From: Bradyrhizobium sp. Ash2021
Lineage (GTDB): Bacteria > Pseudomonadota > Alphaproteobacteria > Rhizobiales > Xanthobacteraceae
Assembly: GCF_031202265.1 (NCBI RefSeq)
Contig: NZ_CP100604.1
Location: forward strand, 5,252,501 to 5,316,500
DNA length: 64,000 nt
Reading direction: 5' to 3'
Shown here: piece after piece, positions 206-10,083 of the stretch
Layout of the letters: every line of letters starts with the position of its first letter
Numbering within the stretch: the first letter of the stretch is position 1
The notes under the pieces: model-generated
The model's database searches: none
What the model was told of the DNA's origin: nothing
What the model saw: the letters and a program-made list of their open reading frames with translations, nothing else
Position numbers and translations under genes: made by a program

Positions 206-555
206 TGCAGCGACGTCGACACATCGCGATGGCGGCGCGCTGGTAATTCAGACGGCGCGCCTCCGCGGTGAGATCGATTTATCATCACCCGTGTAGCCGG
301 CACATCTCCGCGCATTACGCGCGCATCCGGCGCTTGCGCAAATCTTTGCGGTGATGCGGCTTATTTCTGACGTTTGTGCGGCAACTATTTCGAGATGTTG
401 TCGGCGCGGTAACGAAGCGGCTGAACGACAACACGAATTCGCAGCACGCAAAAGGTTCCTCAATCCAGCAAGAAATTTGGGCGTCCAATCGTCACATGCC
501 CGTCGTGCATCAGGTGTTTTTTTCCGCTCCTCAAATAGCACCCAAGGAGCAGCGA
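206..555. other. Intergenic region upstream of the propeller-repeat gene
   Basis: About 350 bases without a convincing gene. It is less GC rich than its flanks and should contain the promoter of the downstream gene. An upstream in-frame ATG at 376 exists, but the 60 residues it would add look non-coding and have no good ribosome site. No repeat or RNA gene was recognised. Confidence 0.5.
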
Positions 556-3500
556 ATGGTTGCAATCAGCGGGATAAAAAAGTTTGCGTCAGGCGCGCCG
601 GTTGGCGCGACCTCCCCCGACTCCATCACCATTGAGAATGGCAGCATCTTCGTCGAGTACGGCAACGGCGCGGACTCGACCGGCGCAGGCGGTTCGAGCA
701 CGATCGTGCAGTACGACAAGAACGGGACGATCGAACACACCTACGCCGTCGCAGGATCGGTCGACGGTCTGAAATTCAATCCCTACACCGGCCAGATCTG
801 GGCGCTGCAGAACCAGGACGGAAACTCCACGCTGACGCTGATCGATCCAATCACCCACAAGGTGACCGGCCCGCTGAGTTTCGCGAATCCTTCTCCGACG
901 CGCGGCTATGACGACGTCGTGTTCAAGGGCGACAGGGTATTTTTGAGCTATACCAATCCGACCGGCACTGGCGATCCGACGCTGGTGGAACTGCTCAACG
1001 GTGACCATCCGAGCGGCACGTTGCTGACGACCACGGTGTTGGCCGACGGCGCGACCGGCTTCAACACGGTGACGGGCGCGACCGAAGTCGTTCCGCAGTC
1101 CGACCCGGACTCGCTCAAGCTCGCATCCGACGGCGACCTGATCTTCACCGACAATGCCGACGGCACGATCATCGACGTGCAGCATCCGGGCACCAGCAGC
1201 CAGGCGATTTCATTCACGACGATCAAGGGGATTCCGGCAGGCTCCGTCGGCAATGCCGGGCTCGACGACGTGATCAAGCCGAGCGCGACGGCCGGCACGT
1301 TCTACATGACCGACACGAAATCCGGGAACGTCTATTCGTTCCACGCCAGCGGCCTCAACACCAACGACTATTACGCTTCGGTTGCGAGCCTGGGCGGTTT
1401 TGGCCAGGTCGATCCGGCGACCGGCGTCTTCGCGCCGCTCGTCACCGGAGCGCAATTCGCCTCGGCGCACGGGCTGATCTTCGTCCCCGACAAGCATGCA
1501 CCGCCGGCGGCGCACGTCGATTCCATCGGGACGTTCGCCAGTCCGCCCAATGGCGTCACGGGACTCGATTCCATCACGATCGCCGGCAGGTACGTGTTCG
1601 TGGAGTACGGCAACGGCGTCGACTCGACCGGCGTCGTGCCGGGCAACAGCACGATCATCCAGTACGACAAGGCCGGACATTTCGTGCATGCCTATTCGAT
1701 CGAAGGATCGGTCGACGGACTAAAGTACAACCCGGAGACCGGGATGGTCTGGGCGCTGCAGAACCAGGATGCGCGCTCCTCGCTGACGCTGATCGACCCC
1801 AACACACAGACAATCGCGGCGCATTTCAACTACGCTAACCCCTCGACATCCCGCGGCTATGACGACGTGGTGTTCAAGGGCAAGGATGTGTTCCTGAGCT
1901 ACACGAATCCGACCGGCAACGGCGATCCGACCATCGTCAAGCTCCTGAACGGCCCGAACCCGAAGCCCGGCGACCTGCTCACCACAGCTCCCGTACTGCT
2001 CGACGGCACGATGGGATATGACACCGTGACCGGCAAGATGGAGCTGGTCCCGCAGACCGATCCGGATTCGCTGAAGCTCGCCGCCAACGGTGATCTGATC
2101 TTCAGCAGCAATGCCGACGGCGCGATCATCGACATCCAGAATCCCGGTACGTCCAAGCAGGCGGTTGCCTTCACCCCCATCAAGGGAATTCCCGCGGGCT
2201 CGGTGGGCAACGCAGGGCTCGACGACGTCATCAAGCCGACTGCGACATCGGGCACATTCTATATCTCGGACGCCAAGGACGGCCGGGTTCTTACCGTGCA
2301 CGCAAGCGGCCTCGACCCCAACGCCTATTATGCCTCGGTGGGTTCGCTCGGCGCGTTCGGTCAGGTCGACGAGAACACCGGCATGTTCACGGCGCTGGTC
2401 TCCGCGGAGAATGCGCCCGGCTTCACCTTCGGTTCGCCGCACGGCGTCGTCTTCGTTCCCGACAAGAACGCGGCTCCTTTCCCGCAGATCGGCACGGTCA
2501 AGACCTTCGAAGCTCCGCTCGATGGCTCGACCAGTCCCGATTCGGTAACAACCGCGAATGGCTCGACCTTCGTCGAATATGGCAATGGTGCTGATTCAAC
2601 CGGTGCCGGCGGTTCGAGCACGATCATCCAGTACGACAAGACCGGCAAAATCGAATTTTCCTACTCGATACCCGGCTCGGTCGACGGGCTGAAATACAAC
2701 CCTGTAACCGGCGAGATCTGGGCGCTGCAGAATCAGGATGGCAATCCCACCCTGACGTTGATCGACCCGAAGACGCACGCGGTATCGGCGCCGCTCAGCT
2801 TCGCCAACTCGTCGGCCAGCCGCGGCTATGACGATGTGGTGTTCAAGGGCGACAAGGTGTTCTTGAGCTACACCAATCCGGCCAGTCCCGGCGACGCGAC
2901 CCTGGTCGAGCTTGTCAACGGCGACCATCCGACGGGCGAACTGACGACCAAAACGATCCTGACCTTTGGCGCCATGGGCCTGGATACCGTGACCGGCAAG
3001 ACAGAACTGGTTCCGCAAAACGATCCCGACTCGCTAAAGCTCGCGCCAAATGGCGATCTCTTGCTGTCGAGCGGCGATGACGGCACCATCATCGATGTAA
3101 AGAATCCCGGTACCGCCCACCAATCGGTTTCCTTCACGCCGGTTGCCGGCGTCGGAGCCCACGCCGGGCTCGATGACGTCATCATGCCTGGCGCCAAATC
3201 CGGCACCTTCACCCTGACGGATACCGCAACCAACCACGTTTTTTCGTTCCACGCGACAGACCTTAACCCCAACGACTACTATGCCTCGGTGGGAAGTCTC
3301 CACGCGTTCGGTCGGGTGGACCCGACCACAGGGATCTTCACGCCACTGCTCTCGGCCGACAACGCGCCAGGCTTCAACTTCAGTTCGCCCCATGGCGTCA
3401 GCTTCACCGCTGATCCGTCTCCGGCTCCGGTGGTTGCCGACGTCGATCACATCTCGACCTTGGCCGCAGCTCCCGCTGGCGCCAAGTCACCCGACTCCAT

Positions 3501-4626
3501 CACGCTGGCGAACGGCGACATCTGGGTCGCCTACACCAACGGCGCCGATTCCACCGGCCTGTCGGGCTCCAGCACAATCGTCGAATATGATCGCAACGGC
3601 CACATCGATCACAGCTATCAGATCGACGGTTATGTCGACGGCCTGAAGTTCGATCCGTCGACCGGCGAAATCTGGGCGCTGCAAAACCAGGACGGCAATT
3701 CCACCCTCAGCATTATCCATCCGGACGATCACAGCGTCGGTCAGCCGTTGTCCTATGCCGATCCATCGTCGACACGAGGCTATGACGATGTCGTGTTCAC
3801 GCATGGCAACGTGTTCATGAGCTACACCAACCCGGCAAACCCCGGCGACCCGACGCTGGTACAGGTGACCAACGCCAACGACCTGGACGGCGGTCCCATC
3901 AAGACCAAGCCGATCCTCGATTTCGGAGATCAAGGTCTCAACCTCGAAACCGGCAAGATGGAGGTGATCCCGCAGAACGATCCGGACTCGCTCAAACTCG
4001 CGCCGAACGGCGATCTGCTGTTTGCCAGCGGCGCCGATCAGGCCATCATCGACGTGCATAACCCCGGCACCACGCATCAGTCGGTCAGTTTCACCCAGGT
4101 GCAGGGCGTGCCGGCCGGCGCCGGGCTCGACGACGTGCTCAAGGTCGATGCCAGTGCCGGGACGTTCTATCTGTCCGACACAGCCGATAACCGGGTGCTC
4201 GCAGTTCACGCGACCGGCCTCAACAGCAACGACTACTATGCTTCGGTCGGCAACGCGTTCGGCGTGGTCGATCCGCAGACCGGTCAGTTCACTGCATTGG
4301 TTTCAGCGGCCAACGCACCCGGCTTCAAGTTCGGCAGCGCCCATGGCGTCGAGTTCGTGGCGGATCACAATTCCGAACAAATCGCACATCATGGCGATGG
4401 CAATTTGGTCTCGGTCGACACCGTCAATGACGGCTTCGTGTTTGCCAACGGAGCCGGCAACGCCGCCTCCGACCACATCGTTCCGCAAGGTAACTTGTTT
4501 GGGGATAAGGCTTCGCAGCTTGCCGCGGACCTTTCCCATGCGGCGCAGAGCGGTTTCGACGTCCCGCACGACGCCTCCCCGTTCCATTTGCCTGGGTTCG
4601 ACTTCCACGATTTCCATCTCGTGTAA
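556..4626 (+). CDS. Giant protein of four tandem beta-propeller-like repeats, probably secreted
   Basis: The start at 556 is chosen because AAGGAG at 544-549 sits six bases upstream and the first repeat begins almost at once; the product is 1356 residues. Four homologous units of about 317, 324, 318 and 307 residues start near residues 10, 327, 651 and 969. Each repeats the same landmarks in order: PDSIT, VEYGNGADSTG, IWALQNQDGN, RGYDDVVF, SYTNP, DPDSLKLA, GLDDV, NDYYASV and a final HGV-F-V/T-D. Alternating short beta-type segments suggest each unit is a whole beta-propeller (inference). There is no N-terminal signal peptide. The last 80 residues are rich in Asp, His and Gly and end PGFDFHDFHLV, a pattern typical of uncleaved C-terminal type I secretion signals. 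No type I exporter lies nearby. Function is unknown; an extracellular binding or enzymatic role is possible. Confidence 0.85.
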   Translation: MVAISGIKKFASGAPVGATSPDSITIENGSIFVEYGNGADSTGAGGSSTIVQYDKNGTIEHTYAVAGSVDGLKFNPYTGQIWALQNQDGNSTLTLIDPITHKVTGPLSFANPSPTRGYDDVVFKGDRVFLSYTNPTGTGDPTLVELLNGDHPSGTLLTTTVLADGATGFNTVTGATEVVPQSDPDSLKLASDGDLIFTDNADGTIIDVQHPGTSSQAISFTTIKGIPAGSVGNAGLDDVIKPSATAGTFYMTDTKSGNVYSFHASGLNTNDYYASVASLGGFGQVDPATGVFAPLVTGAQFASAHGLIFVPDKHAPPAAHVDSIGTFASPPNGVTGLDSITIAGRYVFVEYGNGVDSTGVVPGNSTIIQYDKAGHFVHAYSIEGSVDGLKYNPETGMVWALQNQDARSSLTLIDPNTQTIAAHFNYANPSTSRGYDDVVFKGKDVFLSYTNPTGNGDPTIVKLLNGPNPKPGDLLTTAPVLLDGTMGYDTVTGKMELVPQTDPDSLKLAANGDLIFSSNADGAIIDIQNPGTSKQAVAFTPIKGIPAGSVGNAGLDDVIKPTATSGTFYISDAKDGRVLTVHASGLDPNAYYASVGSLGAFGQVDENTGMFTALVSAENAPGFTFGSPHGVVFVPDKNAAPFPQIGTVKTFEAPLDGSTSPDSVTTANGSTFVEYGNGADSTGAGGSSTIIQYDKTGKIEFSYSIPGSVDGLKYNPVTGEIWALQNQDGNPTLTLIDPKTHAVSAPLSFANSSASRGYDDVVFKGDKVFLSYTNPASPGDATLVELVNGDHPTGELTTKTILTFGAMGLDTVTGKTELVPQNDPDSLKLAPNGDLLLSSGDDGTIIDVKNPGTAHQSVSFTPVAGVGAHAGLDDVIMPGAKSGTFTLTDTATNHVFSFHATDLNPNDYYASVGSLHAFGRVDPTTGIFTPLLSADNAPGFNFSSPHGVSFTADPSPAPVVADVDHISTLAAAPAGAKSPDSITLANGDIWVAYTNGADSTGLSGSSTIVEYDRNGHIDHSYQIDGYVDGLKFDPSTGEIWALQNQDGNSTLSIIHPDDHSVGQPLSYADPSSTRGYDDVVFTHGNVFMSYTNPANPGDPTLVQVTNANDLDGGPIKTKPILDFGDQGLNLETGKMEVIPQNDPDSLKLAPNGDLLFASGADQAIIDVHNPGTTHQSVSFTQVQGVPAGAGLDDVLKVDASAGTFYLSDTADNRVLAVHATGLNSNDYYASVGNAFGVVDPQTGQFTALVSAANAPGFKFGSAHGVEFVADHNSEQIAHHGDGNLVSVDTVNDGFVFANGAGNAASDHIVPQGNLFGDKASQLAADLSHAAQSGFDVPHDASPFHLPGFDFHDFHLV
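583..4380 (+). repeat. Four in-frame tandem repeats of about 950 bp inside the propeller gene
   Basis: Units begin near 583, 1534, 2506 and 3460, aligned on the residue after the K-K/G-T/K-T/S-T step. Protein similarity between units is high, while the DNA has diverged at many third positions, so the duplications are not recent. Unit 4 is slightly shorter, lacking a few residues between the NDYYASV landmark and the following GVVDP segment. Confidence 0.85.
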
Positions 4627-4639
4627 GTAGCGAGAATGG

Positions 4640-4668
4640 CGCGAGAGTGCAGAGAACGCTCTCTCGCG
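4640..4668 (+). terminator. Hairpin after the propeller gene
   Basis: CGCGAGAG at 4640-4647 and CTCTCGCG at 4661-4668 form a perfect 8-bp stem with a 13-base loop, starting 14 bases after the TAA. It is followed by a pyrimidine-rich but not purely T tract (tccgcctcttt), so it is a plausible but imperfect intrinsic terminator. Confidence 0.55.
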
Positions 4669-4863
4669 TCCGCCTCTTTGCGAATACGAACGCCTGAACG
4701 CGAGCTGGCGACCCGCGGCGCGGACGACCGCCAACGGCGTTAAACGAATTCAGAAACTACGAATTAATTGCGAACGATCCCGCTAAACAGACGCCAATAG
4801 TTGTTCGGTAAAAGTAGCTGGAATGCCGGACGAGGCATGATCGAACAAGGGGTAAGGATCGAC

Positions 4864-5285: not shown

Positions 5286-6110
5286 ATGCTCCGGCAGTTG
5301 CTCCCGCCGCCTCGCTTCGCGAGGCTCATTGCATTCATAGGATCGTCCGCGGTCGTGGCGCTGGGGCTTTGCAGCTGCCAGACGTCGGGCCCGTCCGACA
5401 TCACGGGGTCGCTGGGCGACCAAACCGAATCAAGCCGCCCCGCCGAGCCGCGGCGCGAGGTGGGTTTCTATCGCGACCGCTTTCGCGCCAACCCCAAGGA
5501 CGTCGATGCGGCGCTCGAATATGGCAAGGCGCTCCGCGCCACCGGACAGCGCGCCCAGGCGGTCGCCGTGCTCGAACAGGCCACGATCGCCAATCCCGGC
5601 AGCAAGGCGCTTCTCGCCGGTTACGGGCGGGCGCTCGCGGACAACGGCAATTTCCAGCAGGCTTTCGACGTGCTCGGCCGCGCCCACTCCCCGGAAGATC
5701 CCGACTGGCGAATCCTCTCGGCTCAGGGCGCCGTGCTCGATCAGCTCGGCCGCTACGAGGAAGCACGGCAGTATTATGCGAGCGCGTTGAACATCGTGCC
5801 CGACGAACCCACCGTGCTGTCCAATCTCGGCCTGTCCTACGTCCTTTCCAAAGACCTGCCGAAGGCGGAGGAGACCTTGCGCCGCGCCCATGGCCAGGCG
5901 GGGGCGGATCAGCGGATCCGGACCAATCTGGCTTTCGTGGTGGGTCTGCAGGGCCGCGTCGCCGATGCCGAAGGCCTCGTTAAAGCCGATCTGCCGCCCG
6001 AGGAAGCCGCCGCGAGGGTCGCGGCCTTGAAGCAATTATTGTCCCGGAAAGAGCATGCACACGCGGACGGGGATAAAATACCGGTCGCGGCTGCCGCACA
6101 CGCGGACTAA
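5286..6110 (+). CDS. tadD: TadD-like TPR lipoprotein of the Flp/Tad pilus system
   Basis: A 274-residue protein with a hydrophobic N-terminal export signal ending LGLCSCQTSG, a weak lipobox with the modified Cys likely at about residue 33. It is followed by TPR repeats between about residues 60 and 235 (for example the stretches starting DAALEYGKALRATGQRAQAV and NLGLSYVLSKDLPKAEETL). TadD proteins are periplasmic/outer-membrane TPR lipoproteins that help assemble or localise the CpaC secretin. It faces cpaE convergently, with only 182 bases between stops. In other tad loci genes for CpaF, TadB and TadC lie between cpaE and tadD; here they are absent. Confidence 0.85.
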   Translation: MLRQLLPPPRFARLIAFIGSSAVVALGLCSCQTSGPSDITGSLGDQTESSRPAEPRREVGFYRDRFRANPKDVDAALEYGKALRATGQRAQAVAVLEQATIANPGSKALLAGYGRALADNGNFQQAFDVLGRAHSPEDPDWRILSAQGAVLDQLGRYEEARQYYASALNIVPDEPTVLSNLGLSYVLSKDLPKAEETLRRAHGQAGADQRIRTNLAFVVGLQGRVADAEGLVKADLPPEEAAARVAALKQLLSRKEHAHADGDKIPVAAAAHAD

Positions 6111-6292: not shown

Positions 6293-7576
6293 TTACGAAC
6301 GGCCGCGGCCTCCCCGCATCTTCTTGAGGATCGGCATGATCGGCGACAGCAGCGAGCTGCGCGGCTTGGTCTCTGCGCGGCCCGTCATCCGCTGCGCCAT
6401 CTGCAGGAACATCTTCGTGGTGCGGTGATTGGCTGCGATTTCCGCGATCATCTGGCCGTTGTTGGCAGCCGTGCCGAACATTCGCGAATCGAAGGGAATG
6501 GCCGCGATCGGCTGGCTCTCGATGGTCTTGGCGAAGGCGCGCACCTCGATCTCGGGTCGCTTGCTCATGCCGACCTGGTTGAGACAATAGAGCGGCGGCT
6601 TGTCGTTGGGCCGCGACGCCTTCAGCAAGGTCATCATGTTCTTGGCGTTGCGCATATTGGCAAGATCGGGCTCGGCGACGATCAGAATGTCATCGGCGCC
6701 GATCAGCGCGCGCCGGGTCCACGCCGTCCATTGATGGGGAACGTCGAGCACGATGCAGGGCGTGGTCATGCGCAGCGTATCGAAGATCGAGTCGAAGGCG
6801 TCGGCGCCGAAGTCGTAGACCTGATCGAGCGTGGCCGGCGCGGACAGCAGGCTGAGACGGTCGGAGCATTTCGCCAGCAGGCGTTCCATGTAGGAGGTAT
6901 CGAGCCGATCGGGCGAGAATACCGCGTTCGCTATCCCCTGCACCGGATCCTGATTGTAGTCGAGGCTGGCGGTGCCGAACGCGAGGTCGAGATCGATGAC
7001 GACGGAATCCAGCGCGAGATCGCGCGCGATCGCCCAGGCCACATTGTGCGCGATGGTGGACGCGCCGACACCGCCTTTGGCGCCGACGACGGCGATCATC
7101 CGGCCGACCGCGACCGCCTCGGACGCCGAGAACAGGCTGCAGATCGAGCGCACCACATCGAGGACCACGACCGGCCCGATGACGTAGTCGTTGACGCCGC
7201 GGCGCACCAGTTCGCGATACGGCGCAACATCGCTGGCGCTGCCGATCACGACGACGCGGGTGCCGGGATCGCAGACGGTCGCGAGCTCATCGAGGCCGGC
7301 GAGGATGTCGTGGCCGCTCTCGGTTTCCAGGACGATGACGTTCGGCGTCGGCGCCTTGTGATAGGTTTCGATCGCGGCTTCGATGCCGCCCATATGGACC
7401 GACAGATGGGCCTTGGCGAGGCGGCGGTCTTCGGACGCCCCTCGCGCCGCCGCCGCGGTCGAATCGGACGTGCAGAAGGCCTGCACCGATACGCGGGGCG
7501 CCGGCGCGATGTAATCGTCGGCGTGCGGCGTGACGTCGAGTTGGTCTTCGGAGTTTTGACTGGCGCGGCTGCTCAT
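6293..7576 (-). CDS. cpaE: CpaE/TadZ pilus-assembly ATPase-like localisation protein
   Basis: A 427-residue protein with an N-terminal receiver-like domain (about residues 28-145, without the full phospho-acceptor set) followed by a MinD/ParA-type ATPase. The deviant Walker A motif VVGAKGGVGAST is at residues 163-174, and VVIDLDLAFG follows as the downstream motif. TadZ/CpaE proteins place the Tad secretion machine at a cell site. The ATG overlaps the cpaD stop as ATGA (7573-7576), which implies translational coupling. The C-terminus is complete and basic (KKMRGGRGRS). The usual next gene, the cpaF secretion ATPase, is missing: the stop codon is followed directly by a palindromic repeat. Confidence 0.9.
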   Translation of the reverse strand: MSSRASQNSEDQLDVTPHADDYIAPAPRVSVQAFCTSDSTAAAARGASEDRRLAKAHLSVHMGGIEAAIETYHKAPTPNVIVLETESGHDILAGLDELATVCDPGTRVVVIGSASDVAPYRELVRRGVNDYVIGPVVVLDVVRSICSLFSASEAVAVGRMIAVVGAKGGVGASTIAHNVAWAIARDLALDSVVIDLDLAFGTASLDYNQDPVQGIANAVFSPDRLDTSYMERLLAKCSDRLSLLSAPATLDQVYDFGADAFDSIFDTLRMTTPCIVLDVPHQWTAWTRRALIGADDILIVAEPDLANMRNAKNMMTLLKASRPNDKPPLYCLNQVGMSKRPEIEVRAFAKTIESQPIAAIPFDSRMFGTAANNGQMIAEIAANHRTTKMFLQMAQRMTGRAETKPRSSLLSPIMPILKKMRGGRGRS

Positions 7577-8313
7577 TTGCCTGTGTCGCTGAGTTTGGCC
7601 TTTTCGGCTTCGGGATAGACGGTCGTGGTTGGTTCGCCCTTGCGGTACTTCTCGAATGCTTCGGAGCGCCGCGGGGTATAGGCGGGGGTTTCAGATCGCG
7701 GCTGCACGAGGTCCGACGGATTGTCGATCATCGCGGCAAGATTGCGCTGGTTCGCGCAGCCGAAATTGTAATACTCCCTGTTTTCGCCATAGCCGGGGTC
7801 GTTGATCGAAGGACCGAGATCCTCCGGCCACAGACCGCAGGGGCCGGCAACCGCCGCAATCCTTGGATAGCTCAACCGGATCGTCGGCAATGTTCTGATG
7901 TCGTCGGGATGGTAGTGACGCAACTTGATCGCGCTCGCCGGCACGCCGCCAGCCGCAAGGATCCCCTGAGCTTCCCGGAAGGCCGCCGCAGCAGCCCTGG
8001 CGTTCGCCGTGTCGACCGGCACGTCGGCCACAATCGCACCGGTGCCTTCGCTGACCCAGGTCCGTGCCAGCCCCATGACGTCGGAACGTTGCGGCACGGT
8101 CAGACCGCCGCGGGCCTGGCCGACGAAGATCACGACCGAGCGGTTGGTCTCCGTTATCGCGATCGGATGACGCTGACGATAATCGTTGGGAACGCTCGCG
8201 GTGACGACTTCACCGGTCGTATAGTTGCATGCCCCCAACACCACTGAGAGCCCGGCCAGGGTACCCAGCAGGCGCAGCGTTCGGTAGCGACCCACCGGCG
8301 TTCTGTTTGTCAT
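7573..8313 (-). CDS. cpaD: CpaD pilus-assembly lipoprotein
   Basis: A 246-residue protein. The ATG at 8313 is chosen because a lipoprotein signal follows directly: a basic start, a hydrophobic core and the lipobox LGAC near residue 30. The body matches the CpaD family of Tad-pilus lipoproteins: NDYRQRHPIAI, a VFVGQARGGLT-type strand, and a C-terminal FGCANQRNLAAMIDNPSDL motif. CpaD helps the CpaC secretin assemble in the outer membrane. It lies 40 bases downstream of cpaC and overlaps cpaE by four bases. An in-frame ATG at 8334 is possible but has no better ribosome site. Confidence 0.9.
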   Translation of the reverse strand: MTNRTPVGRYRTLRLLGTLAGLSVVLGACNYTTGEVVTASVPNDYRQRHPIAITETNRSVVIFVGQARGGLTVPQRSDVMGLARTWVSEGTGAIVADVPVDTANARAAAAAFREAQGILAAGGVPASAIKLRHYHPDDIRTLPTIRLSYPRIAAVAGPCGLWPEDLGPSINDPGYGENREYYNFGCANQRNLAAMIDNPSDLVQPRSETPAYTPRRSEAFEKYRKGEPTTTVYPEAEKAKLSDTGK

Positions 8314-8353
8314 GGTTCTGTCCCCATCCCGCATCGGCCAAAGCCGCCCCGTC

Positions 8354-9826
8354 TCAGTCAATGATGAAACCAAAGTTGCCGTGGTAGAGCCCAACGGGTT
8401 CGACGCGGGCGGCAACGCCGTAGATCCGGTTGACCTGGGCCAGCAGTGCCGATTGGGAATCCGACGCGGGCGCAAACCCGTCATCGGGGCGCGACAACTC
8501 CTTCTGGGCAACCGCCCGAACCACATAGGGCGTCACGATGACCATCAATTCGGTCTGGTTGTTGATGAAGTCCTGGCTCCTGAAGAGCGCGCCAAAAATC
8601 GGCAACGAGTCGATGCCGGGCATTCCGTTGACGGCCTGCTTGGTCTGTTCCTGGATCAGGCCGGCCATCGCGATCGAGCCGCCGGACGGGATTTCCAACG
8701 TGGTTTCCGCACGCCGGGTCTTGATCGAGGGAATCGTCGTTCCATTGGCGCCGCCGGTCAAAGAGTTTTCGGCCGAGACTTCCGACACTTCGGTCATGAC
8801 CCGCAGGCTGATCCGTCCCTCGGTCAGCACCACCGGCGTGAAGTTGAGCGAGATGCCGAATTTCTTGAAGGCAACCGTCTGAACGCATTGTCCGATCGCG
8901 CCCGCCGTCGTCGTTTGGCAGGTTACGCCGGTCGGAATTGGAAATTCGCCGCCCGAAATAAACGTTGCGGACTCGCCGGAGATTGCCGTCAAATTTGGCT
9001 CCGCCAGCGTCCGGACCACGCCCGCGCTCTCCATCGCGCGCAAGGTAGCGGTGACCGACGGCAGACCGGCCTTGTTCAGGGCCGCCCCGGTCAACCCGTT
9101 GCCGGAGACCAGCGGTGCATTGTTTGCGGTGAACGGATTGGTATTGTTGAAAACGACCGCCGCGGTGCCGTAATTCATGCTGGCACTGAGATCGACGCCC
9201 AATTGCTTGATGATGTCCCGCCGCACTTCCGCGACCGTGACCTTGAGCGTCACCTGATCGCGGCCGCGGACGACGATGGAGTTGACGACCTTGTCGGCGC
9301 CGCCCACCAGACGCGCGACGAGATCGCCCGCCTGCTGGGCCTCGACCGGGCTGGATACCGAGCCGGTCAGCATGACGCTGTCGCCGACGCCTTCGGCCTG
9401 GATTACCGCGGCGGGCAGCATTTGCTTCAATGCGGTGCGCACGCCGTTGAGATCGCGCTTGACCGCGATGTCATAGGCCGCCACCTGCCCGCCATCGGCA
9501 TCGAAGAACACGACGTTGGTCTGCCCGACCGCCGCACCAATGATGTAGGCGCGCTGCGCCGAGCGGACGACCGCGTTGGCGATCTTCGGGTCGGCAACCA
9601 GCACGTCCTTGACGTCGCGCGGCAGATCGATGATCACCGATTTGCCGATGCCGAGCGCAAGAAAGCGGGTCTTGGCGGTGGCGACCGACGCCGTCGGATG
9701 GATATCGGAATCGGCCGCAATGACCGGCGACAGCGCCGGACTGAGCGCCAGTGCGGCGACGGCCGAGAACGACAGGGCACGGATCCAAAATGTTCGCGTC
9801 ACCAGTTGATTTGCCCTGCATTTCAT
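8354..9826 (-). CDS. cpaC: CpaC/RcpA secretin of the Flp/Tad pilus
   Basis: A 490-residue outer-membrane secretin. The ATG at 9826 is chosen because it forms an ATGA overlap with the upstream cpaB stop and has AAGGA eight bases before it. A Sec signal peptide covers about residues 1-36, ending in a hydrophobic stretch before AADSD. A pilus-secretin N-terminal domain follows (LGIGKSVIIDLPRDVKDVLV), then a BON-like segment and the secretin core with EPNLTAISGESATFISGGEF and the GGSIAMAGLIQ region. It ends with an extra tail after VTPYVVRAV. The protein looks intact although its neighbours cpaB and cpaF are not. Confidence 0.92.
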   Translation of the reverse strand: MKCRANQLVTRTFWIRALSFSAVAALALSPALSPVIAADSDIHPTASVATAKTRFLALGIGKSVIIDLPRDVKDVLVADPKIANAVVRSAQRAYIIGAAVGQTNVVFFDADGGQVAAYDIAVKRDLNGVRTALKQMLPAAVIQAEGVGDSVMLTGSVSSPVEAQQAGDLVARLVGGADKVVNSIVVRGRDQVTLKVTVAEVRRDIIKQLGVDLSASMNYGTAAVVFNNTNPFTANNAPLVSGNGLTGAALNKAGLPSVTATLRAMESAGVVRTLAEPNLTAISGESATFISGGEFPIPTGVTCQTTTAGAIGQCVQTVAFKKFGISLNFTPVVLTEGRISLRVMTEVSEVSAENSLTGGANGTTIPSIKTRRAETTLEIPSGGSIAMAGLIQEQTKQAVNGMPGIDSLPIFGALFRSQDFINNQTELMVIVTPYVVRAVAQKELSRPDDGFAPASDSQSALLAQVNRIYGVAARVEPVGLYHGNFGFIID

Positions 9827-10083
9827 ATCGAACGTCCTTGCCACTTCTGTGTCGTCGTCGAGCCTGATACGCCGTAGCGAACCACGCTGATGCTGCCACC
9901 CCGCTTCGGGGCTTGATTGTCGGATCCGTTCTCAACCGTGTTGACGTCGGCAATGCTGCGCAGCGCCAGCGACGGCGTGCTGCTTTGGCGCGCGGGCGCG
10001 CGCGTCTCCGATTGCTCAAGATAGGCCGCGACGCCGTCGGCGCTGAGCGCGGCCATCAGGACAAAAATGCGTGCGGTACTCAT
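9823..10083 (-). pseudogene. cpaB: Internally deleted cpaB (N- and C-terminal ends joined)
   Basis: Only 86 residues, compared with about 260 for the CpaB/RcpC family. The first ~30 residues (MSTARIFVLMAALSADGVAAYL) match the CpaB membrane anchor. The remainder, from about residue 35 (SLALRSIADVNTVEN, then KRGGSISVVRYGV and TTTQKWQG), matches the family's extreme C-terminus. The SAF domain and middle, roughly 170-180 residues, are gone, and the frame is maintained. The stop still overlaps the cpaC ATG as ATGA. The deletion may have arisen between short repeats, and an assembly collapse is possible. A functional product is unlikely. The family assignment of both ends is from memory of related CpaB sequences. 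Confidence 0.75.

Follow-up and report, generated by a model that had tools for sequence, protein, structure and literature searches.

The cpaB gene at a Tad pilus locus of Bradyrhizobium sp. Ash2021 is reduced to its two ends by an internal deletion, and operonic cpaB genes have been reduced by various deletions in nearly every genome of the genus found to encode an extra, full-length CpaB elsewhere: in 17 of the 18 such genomes at least one operonic cpaB was shrunk or lost. The remnant lies directly upstream of intact cpaC-cpaD-cpaE (Table 1) within the window, by which is meant the whole 64,000-nucleotide stretch of DNA that was analysed. We think it fairly probable that a combined explanation holds, with CpaB supplied in trans and operonic cpaB surviving as a translated leader for cpaC.

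Structure of the cpaB remnant in the window

Clusters were named by gene content after the Bradyrhizobium Tad clusters outlined in PMC12918737: the window cpaBCDE genes with the tadD-like gene were taken to be a partial cluster 1, cpaA-cpaBCDEF-tadB to be cluster 2, and TadE-like genes to be cluster 4. In most of the relatives compared, the partial cluster ends with the convergent tadD-like gene. The preliminary description of the window had read the 86-residue frame as the N-terminal anchor region of CpaB joined to the CpaB C-terminus, and the alignments bore this out: its first 22 residues and the ~58 residues that precede the old stop correspond to the N- and C-terminal ends, respectively, of intact CpaB from Bradyrhizobium. 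The reference was cpaB from cluster 1 of genome G053, the closest intact one found (80% DNA identity), a locus assigned to cluster 1 because a convergent tadD-like gene follows and no cpaA was found in the ~870 nt available upstream. In pairwise alignment a single 555-nt deletion, equal to 185 codons and hence in frame as had been claimed, separated the window remnant from this gene; the remaining differences were point changes and one 3-nt gap 3' of the old stop, and the DNA match blocks to G053 were interrupted at the same point. The loss had been put at about 170–180 residues including the SAF domain; SAF is indeed gone, the size was slightly underestimated, and the RcpC domain is missing as well (in intact CpaB, Pfam places SAF at ~43–109 and RcpC at ~116–226). 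Searched against Pfam, the 86 residues matched no family, neither SAF nor RcpC PF16976; against NCBIfam they gave one weak match far under the cut-off, and against solved structures none. The hydropathy peak (17-residue) was 1.88 for the remnant vs 2.46 for intact CpaB. No short direct repeats at the deletion ends were seen on inspection of the alignments.

Table 1. Positions of the cpaB remnant, its neighbours and the extra cpaB (window coordinates unless a locus is named)
Feature	Position	Strand	Basis or remark
cpaB remnant, 86 residues, cluster-1 Tad locus	9823..10083	-	ends align to intact CpaB
Retained 5' end, from the start codon through the hydrophobic N-terminal segment as far as AAYL	10019..10083	-	pairwise alignment with G053
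Deletion junction, few bases uncertain; 555 nt missing vs G053 cluster-1 cpaB	10018..10019	-	alignment
Retained cpaB 3' end, EQSET...TTTQK	9844..10017	-	alignment to intact CpaB
Ancestral cpaB stop position	9841..9843	-	alignment; TGA in relatives, TGG in window, TTG in GAS478
AAGGA, likely cpaC Shine-Dalgarno, now within remnant frame	9835..9839	-	similar AAGGAC in relatives
ATGA, cpaC start overlapping remnant stop	9823..9826	-	sequence
cpaC (secretin), intact	8354..9826	-	PF00263, PF13629, BON
cpaD ORF, listed 5' end probably too long	7573..8526	-	PF09476 / TIGR02522
cpaE	6293..7576	-	AAA_31; Ssd/MinD-type models below cut-offs; named by position and similarity
Convergent TPR gene, tadD-like (name by position)	5286..6110	+	TPR families, conserved neighbour
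Extra cpaB, window genome	L143:5562-6359	-	between TadE-like and fatty-acid-hydroxylase-family genes, beside cluster 2

The junction with cpaC has changed as well. In most loci compared, the cpaB or remnant TGA stop stands ~15–17 nt upstream of the cpaC ATG, and AAGGAC or a similar sequence precedes that ATG. With the old TGA changed to TGG in the window, the frame continues through the likely Shine-Dalgarno sequence into the ATGA overlap. This overlap had been described as kept; it was gained instead, as cpaB of most relatives stops ~17 nt before the cpaC ATG. Nor is it peculiar to remnants, since the intact cluster-2 cpaB of genome G013 likewise has an ATGA overlap. Elsewhere in the window, positions 376–4626 (plus strand) hold a 1416-residue ORF with, judged by eye, about four similar long repeats.

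We examined if the short form could stem from an assembly collapse, one of the readings that the preliminary description had offered, or from a sequencing artefact; the genome comprises 9.7 Mb in two contigs. Bradyrhizobium erythrophlei GAS478 has an 86-residue form at the same place (L033:4762-5022), followed by a cpaC 98% identical to that of the window; the two remnants share the deletion junction and differ by ordinary point divergence. Genome G201, taken to be the GAS478 strain on account of matching coordinates, showed 95% DNA identity across all 501 bases of the region. Three protein clusters, with 15, 7 and 2 members, are headed by relatives of 86–87 residues whose identities are 97, 92 and 88%, respectively (the 15-member cluster may include the window's own protein). 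Because GAS478 and these three protein clusters carry the same form, and the copies diverge by ordinary point changes, a collapse or artefact was rejected in practice; no evidence supporting it was found, and its probability is negligible.

A second reduced cpaB and an extra full-length CpaB

Cluster 2 of the window genome (locus L143) consists of cpaA, cpaB, cpaC, cpaD, cpaE, cpaF and tadB, and its cpaB is also reduced, to 90 residues; the cluster-2 cpaB of GAS478 is reduced to 89. Family matches within the cluster were T2SSE for cpaF and leader-peptidase for cpaA (both in L143), and T2SSF for tadB (in the GAS478 copy). Both genomes encode an intact 265-residue CpaB outside the cpaB-cpaC operons, from a gene on the opposite strand to the adjoining cluster 2. 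The families flanking it were named from the copies in relatives (TadE, PF07811; fatty acid hydroxylase, PF04116), and the genes dubbed "tadE" and "tadG" both match PF07811. The extra CpaB of the window genome scored over the Pfam cut-offs (PF16976, 113 bits; SAF, 27.7 bits) and weakly matched the solved RcpC structure 9gzr (E 2e-4); the two PF16976 matches of this genome both lie away from the remnant. A 318-residue CpaB is also encoded there, in a different Tad cluster (L144). Upstream of this third cluster, two near-identical ORFs of ~250 residues (L144:1035-1763 and 3934-4710), 3 kb apart, flank a 502-residue ORF.

All 18 extra CpaB proteins found in the genus end in C-x-P-x-C, the operonic tail being typically VVRYGV...TQK; the new tail occupies the region corresponding to the RcpC hairpin for which contact with the secretin has been modelled (PMC12307814). 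The extra cpaB lay between TadE-like and hydroxylase-family genes in 14 of the 17 carriers with neighbourhood examined, and in most of these the stretch also took in cluster 2; the hydroxylase-family gene was ~2.7 kb from the extra cpaB in G209, and the contig ended before cluster 2 in G259. No TadE-like gene was found near the extra cpaB in URHD0069 (G229), G048 or G289. Four loci of the intact type (L294, L295, L104 and L108) showed the row from TadE-like to hydroxylase-family gene with no cpaB between, some of these being edge-cut. In a tree of CpaB cores, 13 of the 18 extra copies were separated from the remainder by one branch, and the remainder fell into two groups among operonic copies, so that the extra CpaB did not form one clade (two changes); inner support was weak, and a single origin may be compatible with the tree. 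Cluster 1 and cluster 2 CpaB of related MAGs (L038, L053 and L058 with L106 and L108) grouped together in the same tree, a possible sign of gene conversion between clusters 1 and 2.

Distribution of extra and reduced cpaB genes

A model of the last 55 positions of the extra CpaB, made from 8 sequences, was searched across 265 genomes of the genus; at most 25 first-look candidates per genome were scored, and for this reason an extra copy may have been missed. The 18 copies obtained were open frames of 267–287 codons with E <= 7.4e-19, and the next-best match (1.9e-11) was an ordinary operonic CpaB aligned at model positions 2–32 only. The 18 carriers have two cpaC each, and of these 36 operonic loci 29 held remnant ORFs (~40–149 residues, with deletions that differ among lineages), 4 were without recognisable cpaB, and 3 were intact. 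Both operonic copies were intact in G013 and the cluster-1 copy in G048, and these two genomes look like early stages of the process. The loci without recognisable cpaB were cluster 1 of G017, G206, G228 and G259, where cpaC is still present. At these same loci (L276, L275, L272 and L255, respectively) the first ~10–38 residues of CpaC were unaligned to the window CpaC.

Genomes without an extra copy, chosen as those with CpaC nearest to that of the window, presented a uniform picture: in the 53 tested, all 62 assessable operonic cpaB genes were intact. These loci come from the best 80 of 162 confirmed cpaC loci, 11 of which belong to extra-CpaB genomes; 5 of the 69 others were cut by a contig end and were left out together with L050 and L063, which lie in genomes outside the set analysed (L054, among the 62, starts at a contig end with its core present). 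Fisher's test at genome level, 17/18 vs 0/53, gave 2e-15, a descriptive figure only since it ignores shared ancestry. The 53 come from 58 named genomes (48 + 10) whose loci had looked intact or cut and which were searched for the extra CpaB; one of the 58, dw_78 (= G048), has it; nine of the 17 other extra-CpaB genomes are also present as named records by coordinate match and were counted once. Counts of the RcpC domain followed suit, with at least two matches in 239 of the 247 genomes without the extra copy and only one in 7 of the 18 with it; the 8 genomes without the extra copy that had fewer than two matches are draft assemblies of ~20 or more contigs.

Short open frames in G041, G100 and G132 were considered as remnants without an extra copy and were rejected: the G041 gene is full length, and those of G100 and G132 are cut by contig ends. 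In G041, a genome with no extra CpaB, cpaB carries a single in-frame TAG (G041:C25:30456-30791, minus strand), which may represent either the onset of gene loss or a mistake in the MAG.

Frame retention in the remnants

The original frame was found at the cpaC end of 25 of the 29 remnants, and 20 of the 29 finish at the original stop. In the cluster-1 remnants of the window genome and GAS478 the original frame runs through the mutated stop to ATGA; in cluster 1 of G229 and cluster 2 of G206 and G017 it stops within the last few codons. In the cluster-2 remnants of G051, G091 and G289 the original end is gone and the stop now overlaps the cpaC start in a new ATGA; the cluster-2 remnant of G228 terminates in another frame. 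When the remnants were grouped by eye on shared structure into 22 lineages (some of which may share a first deletion), the frame was kept in 19 of the 22, or in 19 of the 20 with the original end (binomial at one third, 4e-7 and 1e-8). The cluster-2 remnant of GAS478, compared with that of the window strain, has changes of -1 and +4 bases ~33 bases apart, plus a six-base gap; the codons between the two changes are therefore scrambled and the frame is restored after them.

Retention of a frame was compared with a null simulation. Of randomly deleted cpaB genes with no substitutions, 78% remained open until close to the end or beyond it, which makes an open frame alone weak evidence. The informative part is the ending at the original stop: with one deletion, this occurred exactly in 32% of simulated genes, and in 8% when up to 15% substitutions were allowed. 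The simulation bears upon the view that operonic cpaB is a plain pseudogene, dead after duplication and decaying, with an open frame that is due to chance in GC-rich DNA and with neutral deletions. The 78% figure, the four loci without cpaB and the values of dN/dS near 1 reported below for 5 of 6 remnant pairs all agree with such decay; against it stand the excess of the original frame over the roughly one third expected, both for the 29 remnants and for the lineages counted by eye, as well as the compensating indels in GAS478 cluster 2 and the new ATGA overlaps in three lineages. We regard plain decay as rather unlikely, while granting it a real share of the probability.

Sequence constraint on the remnants

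Values of dN/dS (Nei-Gojobori) were calculated for six pairs of remnants, each with 4 to 28 nonsynonymous changes. The window remnant vs that of GAS478 gave 1.07 (from small counts), the adjoining cpaC giving 0.12; the next four pairs gave 1.22, 0.94, 0.76 and 0.72, and the sixth, cluster 1 of G051 and G091, gave 0.17. The cluster-2 value for the window strain and GAS478 takes in the scrambled stretch. By comparison, dN/dS was 0.05–0.24 for cpaC, cpaD and cpaE (15 values, from five of the remnant locus pairs), and 0.08–0.15 for the extra CpaB (4 pairs). Two remnants tested, cluster 1 of G209 and cluster 2 of G259, have no hydrophobic N-terminus. GAS478 cluster 2 has a frame-scrambled tail, and at three loci the tail has been deleted; in cluster 1 of G051 and G091 it has diverged, in an alignment without gaps.

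These data are hard to reconcile with a minimal CpaB, the second reading of the preliminary description, whereby the remnant would be a small membrane protein with its own function via the membrane helix and the C-terminal tail. The hydrophobic N-terminus and recognisable tail of the window remnant, together with the low dN/dS of the G051/G091 cluster-1 pair, fit such a protein; the other five pairs (0.72–1.22), the absence of SAF and RcpC, the remnants without a hydrophobic N-terminus or with a scrambled or deleted tail, and the spread of lengths from ~40 to 149 residues do not. The window remnant is probably not a minimal CpaB, and a function of its own for such a protein appears improbable to us. 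Furthermore, the CpaB homologue RcpC acts in P. aeruginosa as an essential alignment complex that lies in the periplasm and is anchored to the inner membrane (PMC12307814), so that a remnant without SAF and RcpC would be very unlikely to replace CpaB.

One further arrangement would be a split CpaB, in which the old C-terminal hairpin of the remnant, with its modelled secretin contact, would assemble with the differently tailed extra CpaB. The C-x-P-x-C ending of the extra protein, the survival of the old tail in many remnants and the need of P. aeruginosa RcpC for its C-terminal hairpin (PMC12307814) are in its favour; it is opposed by the several remnants in which the old tail is missing or scrambled, and by a dN/dS near 1 for this tail in most pairs, so that we consider it very improbable.

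Discussion

Comparison of the sequences established the deletion and its sharing with GAS478, its recurrence, the association with the extra CpaB and the retention of frame; it points, on small counts, to a relaxed sequence in most remnants, and it supports replacement of operonic CpaB in trans. The explanation that we favour runs as follows. The extra full-length cpaB, outside both cpaB-cpaC operons, would supply the alignment-complex protein CpaB in trans; with no need to encode CpaB any longer, the cpaB genes of clusters 1 and 2 would lose their cores by lineage-specific deletions. The ORF that begins at the old start codon and reaches the cpaC start would be retained as a translated leader by which ribosomes stay on the mRNA as far as cpaC, through termination-reinitiation coupling and/or prevention of polarity, and its amino-acid sequence would no longer matter. 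The window remnant, having lost its own stop and overlapping the cpaC ATG, would be such a leader. We infer that translation of the remnant takes place and aids expression of cpaC, and that both secretins are served by the extra CpaB. The remnant is usually kept as an ORF into the next gene, which suggests that being translated counts more than the product. The first reading of the preliminary description, a deletion kept for translational coupling to cpaC, thus fits best of the readings offered there, with the coupling still presumed; the deletion is not peculiar to this locus, and is one case among repeated reductions of operonic cpaB across genomes with a full CpaB elsewhere. Whether, in many lineages, the old copy is an ORF selected for translation and not for content, with one new-tailed CpaB acting in trans for the secretins of two Tad clusters, is to us an evenly balanced matter.

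Several observations go against the favoured explanation. cpaC retains an apparent Shine-Dalgarno sequence of its own and might therefore do without coupling. At four cluster-1 loci cpaC stands without recognisable cpaB, the cluster-1 remnants of G051 and G091 show constraint on small counts, the cluster-2 remnant of G228 is out of frame, and G013 keeps both intact operonic copies beside the extra one. For these reasons, and since no tree underlies the statistics and CpaC similarity guided the choice of comparison genomes, the favoured explanation was held at fair probability and plain decay was left the share given it above.

If the favoured explanation is true, these genomes separate two roles of an operon gene, that of making a protein and that of carrying ribosomes to the next gene. 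About twenty lineages would then be natural experiments in which the protein role was lost and the ribosome-carrying role apparently kept, i.e., a natural, replicated series of coupling genes that are "contentless". A further prediction is that the CpaB used by the Tad pili of these bacteria is encoded apart from both secretin operons, and the explanation advises caution with "small hypothetical proteins" annotated in such places, which may have no function at the level of product.

The literature searched, at the level of titles and abstract openings, showed nothing on a reduced operonic cpaB or on an extra cpaB beside TadE-like genes. PMC12918737 describes Bradyrhizobium Tad clusters 1–4 and proposes that cluster 1 may derive from a duplication of cluster 2; its passages on these clusters make no mention of cpaB beside TadE-like genes or of reduced operonic cpaB. 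The Caulobacter CpaB is treated in PMC13170226.

With respect to known systems, the remnant derives from the CpaB/RcpC of Tad pili (PF16976 with SAF PF08666; PDB 9gzr) and occupies the same place before cpaC; it differs from them in that both domains are gone. The extra CpaB resembles CpaB/RcpC in PF16976, SAF and, weakly, its match to 9gzr, and differs in lying outside cpaBCDE(F) operons and in having the C-x-P-x-C tail instead of the operonic tail. With translationally coupled gene pairs that have short overlaps and act by termination-reinitiation, the window locus shares the ATGA stop/start overlap; it differs from these pairs in an upstream product that is apparently without selected sequence, and its own coupling is putative.
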